Below are positions 40,342-63,695 of a stretch of DNA of 64,000 bases, piece by piece (within the stretch, counting starts at the first letter, position 1; the number at the start of each line of letters is the position of its first letter). The notes under the pieces were generated by a model. That model was not told the origin of the DNA. It saw only the letters and a list, made by a program, of their open reading frames with translations, and made no database searches. The stretch is from the NCBI RefSeq assembly GCF_001399455.2, contig NZ_LLEI02000090.1, forward strand, positions 62,001 to 126,000, read 5' to 3'. Made by a program: the position numbers and the translations under genes. The stretch comes from Vibrio bivalvicida. Lineage in GTDB: Bacteria; Pseudomonadota; Gammaproteobacteria; Enterobacterales; Vibrionaceae.

Positions 40342-40418
<77 letters not shown>

Positions 40419-40474: not shown

Positions 40475-40558
40475 TGGTGCCGAGAGAGGGACTCGAACCC
40501 TCACACCTAAGGCACTAGCACCTCATGCTAGCGTGTCTACCAATTTCACCATCTCGGC
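40475..40558 (-). tRNA. leuU: tRNA-Leu (anticodon GAG)
   Basis: An 84 nt class II tRNA with encoded ACCA. The acceptor arm is GCCGAGA/TCTCGGC; the anticodon stem CTAGC/GCTAG has loop ATGAGGT, giving anticodon GAG. A variable arm (TGCCTTAGGTGT) follows. It sits between secG and tRNA-fMet, as leuU does in E. coli. Confidence 0.95.
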
Positions 40559-56136: not shown

Positions 56137-57420
56137 TTACTTCTGCACTCGGCGCAGTACTTCTTTCAGTAAATCAAAGTCGTTAGCTAGATCTTCCGAT
56201 AGAAGATCCATTGCTGCGTGTTTCGCTAGCGGGCCCGGAAGATCGATGTCAGAACCAAGAATGTCATCCACCACTTCCTTGAACTTAGCTGGGTGAGCGG
56301 TACATAGGAATAGACCGGTTTCACCCTCTTGAAGTTGTTCGTTTAACACACGATAAGCGATGGCACCGTGTGGCTCACATAGGTAACCTTGTTCGTGTAG
56401 CTCTTTAACTGATGCTGCACTTTCTGCATCCGTAACAGCGCCTTTACCGAGTGTCTCTAGGCCCCACTCTTTTACGCGGCACAGTTCTTCGATACGTGGC
56501 CAGTTGTTAGGCTGACTAACATCCATGGCATTCGAAGTTGTCGCCACTGTTGGCTTAGGATCCCACTTACCTGTTTCTAGGTAGCGCGGCACTGTATCGT
56601 TAGCGTTCGTTGCCGCGATAAAGCGTTTAATAGGTAGGCCAAGTGCTTTAGCAAGTAGACCCGCCGTTAGGTTGCCGAAGTTGCCACTTGGTACAGAAAT
56701 CACAAGATTTTCACGCTGCTCTTTGCTTAACTGAGAAGCGGCTTCGAAGTAGTAACAGATCTGCGCCATTAGGCGTGAAATATTGATAGAGTTGGCTGAA
56801 TTCAAGCCTATTTCTTTGCGCAGCTCAGCGTCATCGAACGCTTGCTTAACCAAAGCCTGACAAGCGTCAAAGTCGCCATCAATAGCCACCGTGTGAATGT
56901 TCTTACCTAAAGTACAGAACAGTTTCTCTTGTAGTGGACTGATCTTCCCTTTCGGGTAAAGGATCACGACATTGATGTCTTCCATTCCATAGAAGGCATG
57001 AGCAACTGCGGCGCCTGTATCACCTGACGTTGCGGTTAAGATAGTAATTTTACCGCCGTCAGAAACAGCCGCTAAAGACTGAGCCATAAAGCGGCCACCA
57101 AAGTCTTTAAACGCAAGCGTTGGGCCGTGGAACAGCTCAAGCGCATATACGCCATCTTTTACTTGCTTGATTGGTGCAGGGAATTGAAACGCTGCATCGA
57201 CTAGAGAGTTTACTTTCTCTTCCGTCAGTTCATCACCAATTAATGCAGAAAGGATTTTGGTACTACGCGAAACAAAATCTTCAGCTAATAACGCATCAAT
57301 ATCATCGAACTTAGGCAACTCTTGCGGGAAGAAAAGGCCTTGGTTACGACCTAACCCTTGGCGAACGGCTTGGCCAAAGGATACTTGTTCATCATTTTCT
57401 TTTATGTTGTACAGCTTCAT
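56137..57420 (-). CDS. thrC: Threonine synthase
   Basis: ThrC converts O-phosphohomoserine to threonine using PLP. The 427-residue product has the PLP lysine in [13 protein letters not shown], the phosphate-binding loop [15 protein letters not shown] and the [15 protein letters not shown] motif. It is the last gene of thrABC and overlaps thrB by 4 nt (ATGA). The length matches the enteric form. Confidence 0.97.
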
Positions 57421-58385
57421 AGCTCACTTCCTGTTACGTTCGAACCCTGTTTGTTCAAGCGACAAACATGGACGAATCCTTCTTCATTTTGTACGTAGTT
57501 TTGTTCAAGCCAGCGAGCAACTCGCTCAGCGACATCTTTATCTTTACAAATACTAAATAGTGTTGGGCCACTACCAGAAATACCAGTAGCTAATGCGCCT
57601 GCTGTTGCCGCATATTTACGTGCATCAGCAAAGCCTGGCAGCAGTTTCTCACGATACGGTTCAGCGATCACGTCTTTGATCATCTTCGCTGCCAATTCAG
57701 GTTGATTTGAATGACACGCGTGGATAAAACCTGCAAGGTGACGACCATGAGCGATGATGTCTTGACGGCGATATTGAGAAGGTAAGATCTCACGCGCTTC
57801 AGCGGTCGAAACTTTGATCCCCGGGTAAGCCATTACCCAGTACCAATCATCAAAGCATGGGACTTCTTGGCTAATAATGCCAAGCTCTTCTAGCATCAAC
57901 TGAACACCACCTAAATAGCAAGGTGCAACATTGTCATAGTGAATACCACCAGAGATTTGACCTTCCATTTCGCCCATTAGCGCTAACAGTTCAGTCTCAT
58001 TCAACGGCTCTCCATGAAAACGGTTTAGCGCATCAAGCGCCGCCACAATAGAACAAGCACTAGAACCGAGCCCAGAGCCGATAGGCATATTCTTTTCTAG
58101 GGTCATTTCAAGCGGCAAAAGCGATTCACCTTTCTTGTCTAACTCTCGAGCGAATACTCTCCAGCAGTCATAAACAATATTCTCTTTAGGATCGGCAGGT
58201 AGCTTAGAGACAAAGTTGCCTGCTGTTTTTAAGCTATATGGTTCACTACCAGACTTCACTAACACTCGATCACCAAGTAGAGTGCCATCAATTGGGGACA
58301 CCGCTGCCCCCAACACATCAAAACCAACGCTTACGTTACCAATTGATGCTGGAGCATAAACTGCTACATCCATACCACGGCTCAT
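57417..58385 (-). CDS. thrB: Homoserine kinase
   Basis: ThrB phosphorylates homoserine, the committed step to threonine. The 322-residue GHMP kinase has the ATP-binding motif [19 protein letters not shown], the [17 protein letters not shown] start and the C-terminal [16 protein letters not shown] loop. I keep the ATG at 58385 because AGGAG, inside the end of thrA, is well spaced from it; an ATG four codons later is possible. It starts 3 nt after the thrA stop. Confidence 0.96.
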
Positions 58386-58388
58386 ACT

Positions 58389-60848
58389 CTAAACTCCTAA
58401 CTTCCAACCTAACGTGCGCATCACGTCTGAGAAAACACCTGCTGCTGTTACTTCAGTACCCGCGCCATAACCACGCAGAACCAGAGGAATCGGTTGGTAG
58501 TAACGGCTGTAGAATGCTAGTGCGTTCTCACCATCTTTAATCTTGTACATAGGATCGTTCTCGTCCACGGCCGCAATGCTTACTCGACATTGGCCATCTA
58601 CGATCTCACCAACATAACGTAGCACTTTCCCTTCTTCTGCCGCTTTTGCAGACTGCTCTTTAAAGTAAGCATCAGCTTCAGGTAGACGAGCCATAAATTC
58701 TTCAATGCTGCCTGAATCATCAAAGCCTGGTGGTAGCGCTTGATCAACGATCACATCTTCAAGCTCAAGGTTCATTCCTGCTTCACGAGCAAGGATAAGT
58801 AGCTTACGCGCAACGTCCATACCTGACAGATCATCACGAGGATCTGGCTCAGTAAAGCCGTTATCTTTCGCGATATTGGTTGCTTGGCTTAGCGTCATGC
58901 CTTCATCAAGCTTTCCGAAAATATAAGATAATGAGCCAGACAAGATACCAGTAAAGCGCTCTAGCTCATCACCAGCAGAGATAAGGTTCTGCAAGTTCTC
59001 AATTACTGGCAGACCAGCACCTACAGTTGTTTCGTACATTAACTTGCGACGTGAACTACGCGCTACATCACGCAATTGGTGGTAGTACGCCATGCTAGAA
59101 GTATTTGCTTTCTTGTTAGGGGTAACCACGTGGAAACCCGCAGCCAAGAAATCAGCATATTGATTAGCAATCACCTCACTTGAAGTACAATCAACCAGCA
59201 CAGGGTTAATGATATGGTTACGCTGAACAAGCGAGATTAGACGAGCCAAAGTAAACTCTTCAGAAGCATCTTTCATACGGTCACGCCAATGCTCTAACGG
59301 TAGACCTTCGCTATCAAGCAGCAAGCCTTTACTGTTGGCTAATCCACAGACACGTAAAACAATACCTTTTTCGGCCAACTTAGCTTGTTGACGCTGAATC
59401 TGATCAACCAGCTCACCACCAACACCACCGACACCAACAACAAACACATCAAGGAAGTGCTTCGAGTTAAATAGATTCTCATGACACGCTTTGATTGCTT
59501 CAGAGATCTTGTCCTCCGGGATCACGGCAGAGATCGCACGCTCTGATGAACCTTGTGCGATAGCGACTATGTTGACATTTACTTCAGCCAACGATGAAAA
59601 GAACTGCGAGGCTACACCGCGTGATGTGCGCATTCCGTCGCCAACTAACGTCACGATAGCGACATCACTGATAAACTCGACTGGCTCTAGTAATCCATCT
59701 TTTAGCTCAAGCTCAAAAGTATCACTCAGTGCCTGTGCAGCAATCTCTTTGTCTTGTGCTTCGATACAGAAACTGATGCTGTACTCCGACGATGATTGAG
59801 TAATAAGTACAATCGAAACACCAGCAGAAGACATAGCACCAAATACTCGACTCGCCATGCCGACCATTCCCTTCATACCCGGACCAGAAACGTTGACCAT
59901 AGTCAGATCGCTAAGCGTCGTAATACCTTTAATTGCTAAGTTATCTTCACCAGTATCTTGACCAATTAAAGTCCCTGCACCCTGCGGATTAAAGCTGTTC
60001 TTAATCAAACACGGGATATGGAATTGAGCGATTGGAGCGATTGTTTTAGGGTGAAGAACAGAAGCACCAAAGTAAGATAGCTCCATAGCTTCTTGGTAGC
60101 TTAGAGATTTAAGTAGGCGCGCATCGTCAACTAAGCGTGGGTCACAGTTATAAACGCCATCAACATCAGTCCAGATTTCACAGCAATCCGCACGCAGACA
60201 AGCAGCAAGTACCGCAGCAGAGTAGTCAGAGCCGTTACGACCTAGTGTCACCAACTCGCCTTCTTCGTTGCCTGCGGTAAAGCCAGGCATTATATTAACG
60301 TGTCCTTGAGGAAGAGGATTTTGGCGGAAGTTTTGCGTCGAGACCTCAACATCAACCATAGCTTCTAGGTGATCACCACGAGCAAATAGATACTGAACTG
60401 GGTCAATTAAGCTGGCTGCTTGACCTTTCGCTTCGAGTACCGCCTTCATTAGCTGAATAGAAACTCTTTCGCCTTTGCTGATAATACGTGCATTAACATG
60501 GTCTGGGCACATACCCAAAAGGTTGATACCGTGAACAAACTGACGCAGTTGAGTCAGTGACGTTTTTACTTGATTGTCATAACCACTACCATCAATGTTT
60601 GGTAGCACCTGCTTAATATCTTGGTACAAGTCGCGGAAAGAGTCTTCTAGCTCAGCAATCTGTAGCTCAGCCTCTCCATTTTTCAATGCGCCTTCAACCA
60701 CAGACACTAATTTATTCGTGGTTTTACCTGGAGCCGAAAGCACCACCGCCACTTCTTCTTGCTGGGCATTATTAGCAATGATATCTGCTGCTCTTAAAAA
60801 ACGATCAGCATCTGCTAATGATGAACCTCCAAACTTTAAAACTCGCAT
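58389..60848 (-). CDS. thrA: Bifunctional aspartokinase I/homoserine dehydrogenase I
   Basis: ThrA catalyses the first and third steps from aspartate to threonine. I start at the ATG at 60848 ([17 protein letters not shown]), which has a strong GGAGGAAGG site; the frame extends seven codons upstream. The 819-residue product has the aspartokinase domain ([17 protein letters not shown]), two ACT regulatory domains (about 315-455) and the homoserine dehydrogenase ([28 protein letters not shown]). Threonine feedback is expected. It follows the thrL attenuator. Confidence 0.97.
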
Positions 60849-60879
60849 CCCTTCCTCCAAATAGGTCATAAATTGGCAT

Positions 60880-60919
60880 AAAAAAAGGCCTGTATCTGGT
60901 GGGATACAGGCCTTTTTTT
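60880..60919 (-). terminator. thr operon attenuator (terminator hairpin)
   Basis: GGCCTGTATC/GATACAGGCC, 10 bp perfect stem (60887-60896 with 60903-60912), 6-nt loop, with a run of seven T on the minus strand and A residues on the other side. It lies between the thrL leader peptide and thrA. The leader segment GCAGGC (60939-60944) can pair with its 5' arm as an antiterminator, and GCAGCCT/AGGCTGC (60991-60997 with 60936-60942) forms the competing stem. Confidence 0.9.
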
Positions 60920-60932
60920 TAATTTCTTTCGC

Positions 60933-60986
60933 TTAGCAGCCTGCCCCAACAATAGCGATGTCGGTAATAATAATGGTTGTGGTCAT
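60933..60986 (-). CDS. thrL: thr operon leader peptide
   Basis: A 17-codon reading frame, MTTTIIITDIAIVGAGC, with four Thr and five Ile codons out of 17. These are the residues whose shortage would stall the ribosome. It stops just before the terminator hairpin and overlaps the pairing segments that decide between termination and read-through. E. coli thrL likewise combines Thr and Ile codons and ends in GAG. The Shine-Dalgarno region is weak. Confidence 0.9.
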   Translation of the reverse strand: MTTTIIITDIAIVGAGC

Positions 60987-61281
60987 TACTAGGCTGCGGT
61001 TCTGCATATTCTTAATTATCTATACGATGTGTGTTTGCTTACCCATACGTTTACCTTATTTTTCCTGTTCACGTCAACGAAAAGTTACTATTTTTTGTTC
61101 GCGCTCCGCATCACTCACATTCACAACATCTCATCATGTTGCCTAACAATTGCCACAACAAATGAAACTATTAGCACATATCATAATAACTAATTGCTAT
61201 ATAAAAGTTGCAACTAGTTCGTTCATTTTATGCTTTAATTAGTCTTGCAGTGGAAAGCAGACAATAGCAAAGGAGTGGCAT
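60987..61281. other. Divergent promoter region between thrL and the beta-barrel gene
   Basis: About 295 bases holding the thr promoter (leftward) and that of the small outer-membrane protein (rightward). A -10-like TATAGAT lies on the minus strand near 61019-61025, about 35 nt before thrL. The remainder is AT-rich with no credible gene. Confidence 0.4.
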
Positions 61282-61743
61282 ATGAAAATAACACTAAGCC
61301 TATCAGCGCTACTTTGCGCGTGTCCGTTATTTGCAACCGAACTCCCCACGCTGCCTTCACATCAATCTGTCTCACCACACAAGATCTTTTTATCGACTGA
61401 AAATGATCAATACGATTTTGATTCTTGGAAGATCGATGGTGGCTACTCATACAACCTATTCGACAAGGTTGATCTTTACGTCGGTGCCCGACTCAACAAT
61501 AGCGCGAAGATCAATGAAACTGGTTTCTTAAGTGGTGTAAGCTATCAGCTAACGCCTAGAGTTTCGGTGCAGAGTACCGTGCATTCTTACAATGATGAAA
61601 GTTTGACAGAAGGGAAGGAGTCAAGCTTAGCAGCAGAAGTATCGAGCCGAATGAAACTCACAGAAAATCTCGATGTGCATGCCACTCTCGACTATCAAGA
61701 GTGGCAGAAGGGAGTTGAAATTGGATTAGGCTTTAGATTTTAG
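61282..61743 (+). CDS. Small putative outer-membrane beta-barrel protein
   Basis: I do not recognise a named family. The 153-residue precursor has a signal peptide ([18 protein letters not shown], cut after LFA). The mature part shows alternating polar and hydrophobic strands ([45 protein letters not shown]) and ends [10 protein letters not shown] with a terminal Phe, the typical outer-membrane signature. A strong AAGGAG site precedes the ATG. Its stop overlaps the convergent RraA-like gene by 4 nt. Confidence 0.7.
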
Positions 61744-62225
61744 CTCCAATCTAGTAACTCGGTAGACATCAAAACCCCGTTCCAATCCGCATAAATATAA
61801 TCACCCGGTTGAATCATTTGGTTATGAATGGTCAATGTGACATTGACTTCCCCTGCTCCACGTTTTTCGGTCTTAAATGGGCAAGTACCCAAGGCTTTGA
61901 TCCCTAGCTCCATTTCCGCCATCATTCCCACATCTCGAACCGCACCATTGACAATTACGCCTTCCCAATTGTTATCGATCGCTAAGATCGCCAATTGATC
62001 ACCCATCAGCGCTTTTTGGCACGAACCATGCCCATCGACCACGAGTACTTTTCCCGTACCATCTTGGCTAAGTATTTCTCTAACTTTAGAATTATCATGG
62101 TAACAACGCACGGTAACAATCTCACCATAGAAGGCAAATTTCTGACCAAAGCTATGCAGTGGTAATTCTAGCAACGTGACCTTGTCTTCATGCTTATCAC
62201 AAATATCTGGGGTTATATCTTTCAT
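61740..62225 (-). CDS. RraA-fold protein, probable 4-hydroxy-4-methyl-2-oxoglutarate aldolase-like enzyme
   Basis: A 161-residue protein of the RraA/HMG aldolase fold. I start at the ATG at 62225, with a GGAGG site. It contains [20 protein letters not shown] and [19 protein letters not shown]. The metal/substrate motif of active aldolases in this fold, D-X20-R-D, is complete (Asp76, Arg97, Asp98). E. coli RraA, the RNase E inhibitor, has Ala and Gln at the two Asp positions. So a lyase or oxaloacetate decarboxylase role is more likely than, or additional to, RNase E control. Many databases label such genes rraA or menG. Confidence 0.8.
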
Positions 62226-62261
62226 TTTTCCTCCATGAACTTCCAAATTTAAAATCGAATC

Positions 62262-62978: not shown

Positions 62979-63695
62979 ATGCAAACCCCGCACATTCTTA
63001 TTGTTGAAGATGAGCAAGTAACTCGTAACACTCTAAAGAGTATTTTTGAAGCAGAGGGATACGCTGTTTTTGAGGCCAGTGACGGTGAAGAGATGCACCA
63101 GGTGCTGTCTGATAACCAAGTTAACTTGGTCATTATGGACATCAACCTACCAGGCAAGAATGGTCTACTGCTAGCCCGCGAACTGCGCGAGCAAGCTAAC
63201 GTTGCGCTGATGTTTTTAACAGGCCGTGACAATGAAGTTGATAAGATTCTTGGTCTAGAAATCGGTGCTGACGATTACATCACTAAACCGTTCAACCCAC
63301 GCGAGCTAACTATCCGTGCGCGCAACCTACTGAACCGTTCGATGAATTCGAGCGCAGTAAGCGAAGAGAAGCGCAGCGTAGAAAAATACGAGTTCAACGG
63401 TTGGGTTCTTGATATCAACAGTCGTTCACTAGTTAGCCCAAGCGGTGATGGCTACAAGCTACCTCGTTCTGAGTTTCGTGCCCTACTTCACTTCTGTGAA
63501 AACCCTGGCAAGATCCAGACGCGTGCAGACCTACTGAAGAAAATGACAGGTCGCGAGCTTAAGCCACACGATCGTACTGTTGACGTAACAATTCGCCGTA
63601 TTCGTAAGCACTTTGAATCAGTTTCTGGCACACCAGAAATCATCGCAACGATTCACGGTGAAGGCTACCGCTTCTGTGGCGATCTAGAAGAATAA
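62979..63695 (+). CDS. arcA: Aerobic respiration response regulator ArcA
   Basis: ArcA is the response regulator partner of ArcB and controls respiratory and TCA genes. The 238-residue OmpR-family protein has the receiver acid pocket Glu10-Asp11, phosphoacceptor Asp54 (VIMDINLPG), the conserved Lys in [10 protein letters not shown], and a C-terminal winged helix ([23 protein letters not shown]). It is monocistronic between an upstream FNR box and a strong terminator. arcB lies 45 kb away at 15.3-17.6 kb. Confidence 0.97.

Follow-up and report, generated by a model that had tools for sequence, protein, structure and literature searches.

The thr operon of Vibrio bivalvicida is preceded, with a probability of about 0.93, by a ribosome-mediated transcription attenuator, the counterpart of Escherichia coli thrL, translated from ATG 61007 over 24 codons. 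Within the window, that is, the whole stretch of 64,000 nucleotides analysed, the anatomy of the attenuator was observed directly, as were, by comparison with relatives, its conservation and the compensatory changes in its helices. It is an ordinary regulator of an already known type, the standard Vibrio thr attenuator. An earlier note on this DNA had recognised the kind of regulator correctly but had taken the wrong start codon, so the peculiarities it claimed for the leader fall away.

As read from the sequence, the minus strand carries before thrA, in this order, a candidate promoter, ATG 61007, the in-frame ATG 60986, a Thr/Ile run, a stop codon and a terminator, and thrA, thrB and thrC lie directly downstream of the leader on the same strand. 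The features are listed below in the direction of transcription, except that the family match over the whole element follows its parts.

61048..61077, minus strand: putative promoter, TTGACG 61077-61072, 18-nt spacer and TAAACG 61053-61048 (sequence reading).
60933..61007, minus strand: thrL leader peptide gene of 24 codons plus stop, ATG 61007-61005 and TAA 60935-60933, most probably encoding MQNRSLVMTTTIIITDIAIVGAGC (sequence, relatives, TIGR02077).
60991..60997, minus strand: segment 1, GCAGCCT, within leader codons 4-6 (sequence, folding scan, complementarity to segment 2 above shuffles).
60984..60986, minus strand: internal Met codon directly 5' of the Thr/Ile run, the start codon of the earlier note (leader comparison).
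60963..60983, minus strand: control-codon run ACC ACA ACC ATT ATT ATT ACC, Thr-Thr-Thr-Ile-Ile-Ile-Thr (sequence; conserved core in relatives).
60936..60947, minus strand: segment 2, GGGGCAGGCTGC, at the end of the leader frame, partner of either segment 1 or segment 3 (sequence, fold, comparison).
60880..60919, minus strand: segments 3 and 4, an intrinsic terminator with a 17-bp stem, a 6-nt loop and a T run (fold, comparison).
60879..60997, minus strand: Rfam RF00506 Thr_leader match, 72 bits, model positions 1-118 of 118.
58389..60848, minus strand: thrA, bifunctional aspartate kinase/homoserine dehydrogenase I (NF006959, 1285.5 bits).
57417..58385, minus strand: thrB, homoserine kinase (TIGR00191, 356.8 bits).
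56137..57420, minus strand: thrC, threonine synthase (TIGR00260, 381.3 bits).

The start ATG of thrA at 60848 is preceded by GGAGGAAGGG. Two further Ile codons follow the control run on its 3' side in the leader frame, and the 24-residue leader holds 4 Thr and 5 Ile codons altogether. The candidate promoter at 61048..61077 was not among the sites listed by a sigma-70 scan of the window; 50 of 82 genus-like loci carry a motif of the form TTGAC/T-N15-22-TAAACG 5' of the leader. In the window, the transcript would be expected to start near 61040. On the far side of the leader from the operon, a 153-aa frame at 61282-61743 (plus strand) points away from the thr genes, has a signal-peptide-like start by eye and gave no NCBIfam match; it is followed by an RraA-family gene at 61740-62246 (minus strand; PRK12487, TIGR01935) and by arcA at 62979-63695 (plus strand).

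The comparisons draw on 139 fetched loci, of which nine lacked a recognised thrA start, leaving 130, and five more were taken out as duplicates or for having no leader, leaving 125 leaders. The genus-like set of 83 leaders was picked by peptide ending and includes L068, which comes from another family; the 82-member version, used for the promoter motif and the peptide counts, leaves L068 out. Among the order-level loci, the leaders of L239 and L073 could not be resolved, and at least five rows were read from an internal start.

Membership in the known family is clear from the RF00506 match, which covers the entire model and exceeds the gathering score of 55 (E 1.7e-11). At E<=0.001 the model found a match in 36 of 37 same-genus genomes, the window's own included, with 34 of the 37 above the cut-off; 4 of 14 control genomes also matched at this threshold, E. 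coli and 3 others, so a weak match is unreliable. At E<=1e-6, 223 of 247 family genomes matched (205 above the cut-off) and E. coli was the sole match among the 14 controls, and in order-level genomes 78 of 197 matched at E<=1e-5 (27 above the cut-off). A pattern derived from the leader itself matched 36 stretches, 34 from Vibrio, one from Vibrionaceae and one from Vibrionales. At the peptide level, the NCBIfam profile TIGR02077 (thr_lead_pep) aligned with the 24-residue form over positions 1-23 of 23 with 21.8 bits against a cut-off of 22.95 (E 1.2e-4). PMC3766115 counts 45 Thr leaders in its own set of genomes.

The terminator (60880-60919) is almost symmetric, and RF00506 also gives a weak second match on the other strand, in the window and in several related genomes; a pattern scan of the plus strand returned the same hairpin with 18 pairs and a loop of 4. 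Other Rfam matches in the window are a gltS RNA (RF02982, 20877-20980, plus strand, 105 bits vs a cut-off of 47.5), which is a cis-regulatory candidate, a rimP leader (RF01770, 40152-40282, minus strand) and an S15 leader (RF00114, 52134-52253, minus strand), both well above their cut-offs, and two tRNAs (40345-40418 and 40478-40558).

The three alternative pairings described in the earlier note are present in the sequence. The 7 bp of 1:2 are formed by GCAGCCT at 60997-60991 and its exact reverse complement, AGGCTGC at 60942-60936, and GCAGGC at 60944-60939 can pair with GCCTGT in the 5' arm of the terminator with one G-U pair, giving 2:3. The hairpin, its T run ending at 60880 and thrA beyond it were likewise found as described; only the stem differs, and the 10 bp attributed to it was rejected in favour of the 17 bp seen in the fold.

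In the alignment A1, comprising 55 of 122 available leader sequences with E. coli included, the 6-pair core of helix 2:3 was paired in 99.1% of cells and showed changes on both sides at 2 of 6 pairs. Its covariation score was 0.244, and a control slid by +2 scored higher (0.291), yet only 50% of the cells of that control were paired. The terminator helix 3:4 was paired in 97.7% of cells, and 6 of its 17 pairs had changed on both sides. For 1:2 taken as the exact 7 bp, column-wise covariation in the same alignment was not above shuffles (60.7% of cells paired vs 60.1% shuffled). Because segment 1 slides between species, 1:2 was tested as complementarity; 68 of 69 distinct genus-like leaders, and 33 of 37 others, had a better duplex energy than the average over 60 shuffles. 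Of 300 exchanges of segment 2 among its 22 types, 2 reached an equally good mean 1:2 energy and none did so for 2:3. The 1:2 pairing is thus kept as complementarity in a sliding register, and the exact 7 bp is not conserved. The covariation that the earlier note had proposed to look for across relatives in all three pairings was accordingly found as compensatory changes in 2:3 and 3:4 and failed to appear in the exact 1:2 columns, and the classical 1:2, 2:3, 3:4 logic that it had recognised is borne out by the Rfam match, by these changes and by the 1:2 complementarity, and the folding scan is consistent with it.

A terminator alone would also reduce expression of the gene downstream of it, here thrA, and the region might be read as a plain intrinsic terminator with a small frame next to it by chance. 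Such a reading is extremely improbable, given that the frame and its control codons are conserved in relatives and that 2:3 carries compensatory changes.

The mechanism proposed for the attenuator in V. bivalvicida is the same as that described for E. coli thr (PMC4132733); the stalling of the ribosome and the transcriptional outcome are steps that we infer. Translation of the leader would begin at ATG 61007 and run for 24 codons. With Thr- and Ile-tRNAs charged, the ribosome would reach the stop codon and cover segment 2, the 3:4 terminator would form and transcription would stop before thrA. With Thr or Ile in short supply, the ribosome would stall in the run (codons 9-15) and sequester segment 1, upon which segment 2 would pair with segment 3 and polymerase would continue into thrABC. 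If the leader were not translated, 1:2 would pair and the terminator would win.

Folding under a ribosome mask, with an assumed footprint extending 14 nt each way, is consistent with these steps. With no ribosome, 1:2 forms in the model. With segment 4 not yet made, 2:3 forms with 7-10 bp when the P site is at any of codons 1-17, shrinks to 4 bp at codon 18 and is lost from codon 19 on, the positions from which the terminator alone is predicted. In this model, then, a ribosome in the run permits 2:3 and a ribosome near the stop codon prevents it; the Thr/Ile run was not singled out by the scan, since 2:3 forms for P sites at all of codons 1-17. Once segment 4 is present, no ribosome position gives a better fold than the terminator, and the decision therefore has to fall while transcription is under way.

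The start of the leader is where the present reading departs from the earlier one. The earlier note read a 17-codon frame, MTTTIIITDIAIVGAGC, that begins with ATG 60986, ends with the stop codon (60935-60933) and is present in the sequence. This frame stays open 5' of 60986 up to ATG 61007, 7 codons further upstream. With no start codon preselected, all 117 distinct Thr/Ile frames (L077 and L079 skipped), the one of the window included, have an in-frame ATG 9-33 nt 5' of codon -17; an out-of-frame ATG occurs in the same upstream region in 7 of the 117. A 17-residue leader from ATG 60986, with segment 1 lying upstream in the initiation region, could appeal to the 59 of 83 genus-like leaders that have ATG as codon -17, to the leader reported for V. 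natriegens, whose 54 bp, 18 AA and 5 Thr plus 5 Ile codons (PMC12925634) correspond to the length from the internal ATG, and to the Shine-Dalgarno pairing in the window, which is weak at both sites and barely better upstream (-0.2 kcal/mol at ATG 61007, +0.2 kcal/mol at the internal ATG). Against this, the ATG universal among the 117 loci is the upstream one, whereas no ATG lies 15-20 codons from the stop, as a counterpart of 60986 would, in 44 of 125 leaders, and no Met precedes the run in 14 of 83 genus-like leaders. Across the 81 leaders with both ATGs, Shine-Dalgarno pairing is better at the upstream one in 69, equal in 3 and worse in 9 (medians -1.9 kcal/mol upstream and +0.6 kcal/mol internal), and the long form fits E. 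coli thrL. The 17-residue start is very unlikely on these counts and was rejected, together with the placement of segment 1 upstream of the start codon.

The leader is therefore most probably the 24-residue peptide from ATG 61007 with segment 1 inside its frame, as judged from the sequence and its relatives. With this start the leader is not short, segment 1 falls within it, and the layout of the parts is the same as in E. coli thrL. Three details that had been offered as new arose because the internal ATG was picked as the start: the peptide said to be shorter than that of E. coli has 24 residues vs 21, the control codons assigned to positions 2-12 form a run at codons 9-15, and segment 1 lies upstream of the internal ATG only. 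The start of a Vibrio thr leader is easy to misplace, because the common internal ATG sits directly 5' of the Thr/Ile run.

Used as a control, E. coli thrL showed the same order of parts. It shares with the leader of the window the site before thrA, a Thr/Ile-rich peptide, a complementary stretch inside the frame, segment 2 at the frame end, a terminator with a T run and an RF00506 match over the whole model. The two differ in codon content, 4 Thr and 5 Ile in the window and 8 Thr and 4 Ile in E. coli (PMC12925634), in the end of the peptide, GAGC in the window and GAG in E. coli, and in the internal Met codon before the run, a feature of the window leader that E. coli thrL lacks.

The nearest described system is that of V. 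natriegens, where a thr leader of 54 bp and 18 AA with a poly-U hairpin was reported 163 bp upstream of thrABC in 2026, and where the authors already proposed attenuation at the thr operon (PMC12925634). Like the element in the window, it combines a Vibrio Thr/Ile frame with a poly-U hairpin before thrABC. Two relatives studied here, L025 and L026, have their upstream ATG at this same distance of 163 bp (25 codons plus 88 nt), and the reported 54 bp and 18 AA fit the length from the internal ATG; the relatives suggest that the V. natriegens frame may start 7-8 codons further upstream than reported. In the expression data given there, thrA was lowered by Ile (LFC -0.63), and the effect of Thr was not significant (LFC -0.25) (PMC12925634). 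These values agree with what an attenuation response would predict for Ile.

A possible refinement, compatible with a thr attenuator translated from ATG 61007, is that the internal Met codon is a control codon as well, making the element a Thr/Ile/Met attenuator in which a shortage of any one of three ThrA-derived amino acids would relieve termination. The mistaken start would then be a selected Met control codon of a Vibrio attenuator that reads Thr, Ile and Met, which could explain why thrABC is lowered by methionine in V. natriegens. Both the refinement and this explanation are doubtful, at something like one chance in five.

Several counts point in that direction. Of 83 genus-like leaders, 69 carry a Met ahead of the run, between residue 4 and position -16, and 49 of the 66 distinct genus-like peptides have one at most two residues ahead of their first Thr/Ile run. 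Within the run itself (positions -15 to -10 and -8), 13 of the 83 leaders contain Met, which is the commonest residue there other than Thr and Ile. The fewest changes per run position on a thrA tree total 12 for Met, 1 each for Ala, Ser and Asp and 0 for Val, although Met is one base away from Ile, the change counts stand without a null model and do not separate gain from loss, and the tree is a quick one from ~320 bases of thrA. Between Thr/Ile neighbours, the 66 distinct genus-like peptides hold Asp 59 times at a nearly fixed position, Met 21, Ala 11, Ser 11, Asn 7 and Val 5 times, and other families hold Met 19 and Gly 17 times, whereas the rest of the family has one Met vs 25 Gly. In family f9, whose RF00506 matches lie in genomes of 1.8-2.6 Mb, an internal Met is present in 8 of 8 resolved leaders and two or more in 6 of 8, whereas families f2 and f10 and E. 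coli have few or none. Met before the run is also rarer outside the genus-like set (4 of 29 and 4 of 51 distinct peptides). The folding scan did not single out stalling at the Met codon. Thr leaders with at least two Met codons in or near the control run are L020, L133, L136, L068, L192, L195, L214 and L232, the last five from family f9.

As to a different cause of methionine repression, no tandem pair of met boxes with <=5 mismatches in 16 was found on the minus strand of 60848-61400, a result in favour of the refinement. On Met codons in thr leaders, nothing on point was found in the literature searched; Vitreschak and colleagues reportedly made a comparative study of attenuators, and an earlier description of such codons is possible. 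The accessible part of PMC2965389 has no passage on thrA, threonine, the thr operon or Vibrio. In V. natriegens, methionine lowered thrA, thrB and thrC (LFC -0.52, -0.47 and -0.39), an effect whose physiological significance is unclear according to the authors (PMC12925634). The effect is small and may be indirect.

As an attenuator the element is routine and belongs to a known family; what merits a test is the methionine idea. Methionine is a third product of the ThrA branch, and a reading that begins at the internal ATG makes what may be a Met control codon look like a start codon and so hides possible methionine sensing. If true, such sensing would bear on threonine production in V. natriegens and on the evolution of multivalent attenuators.
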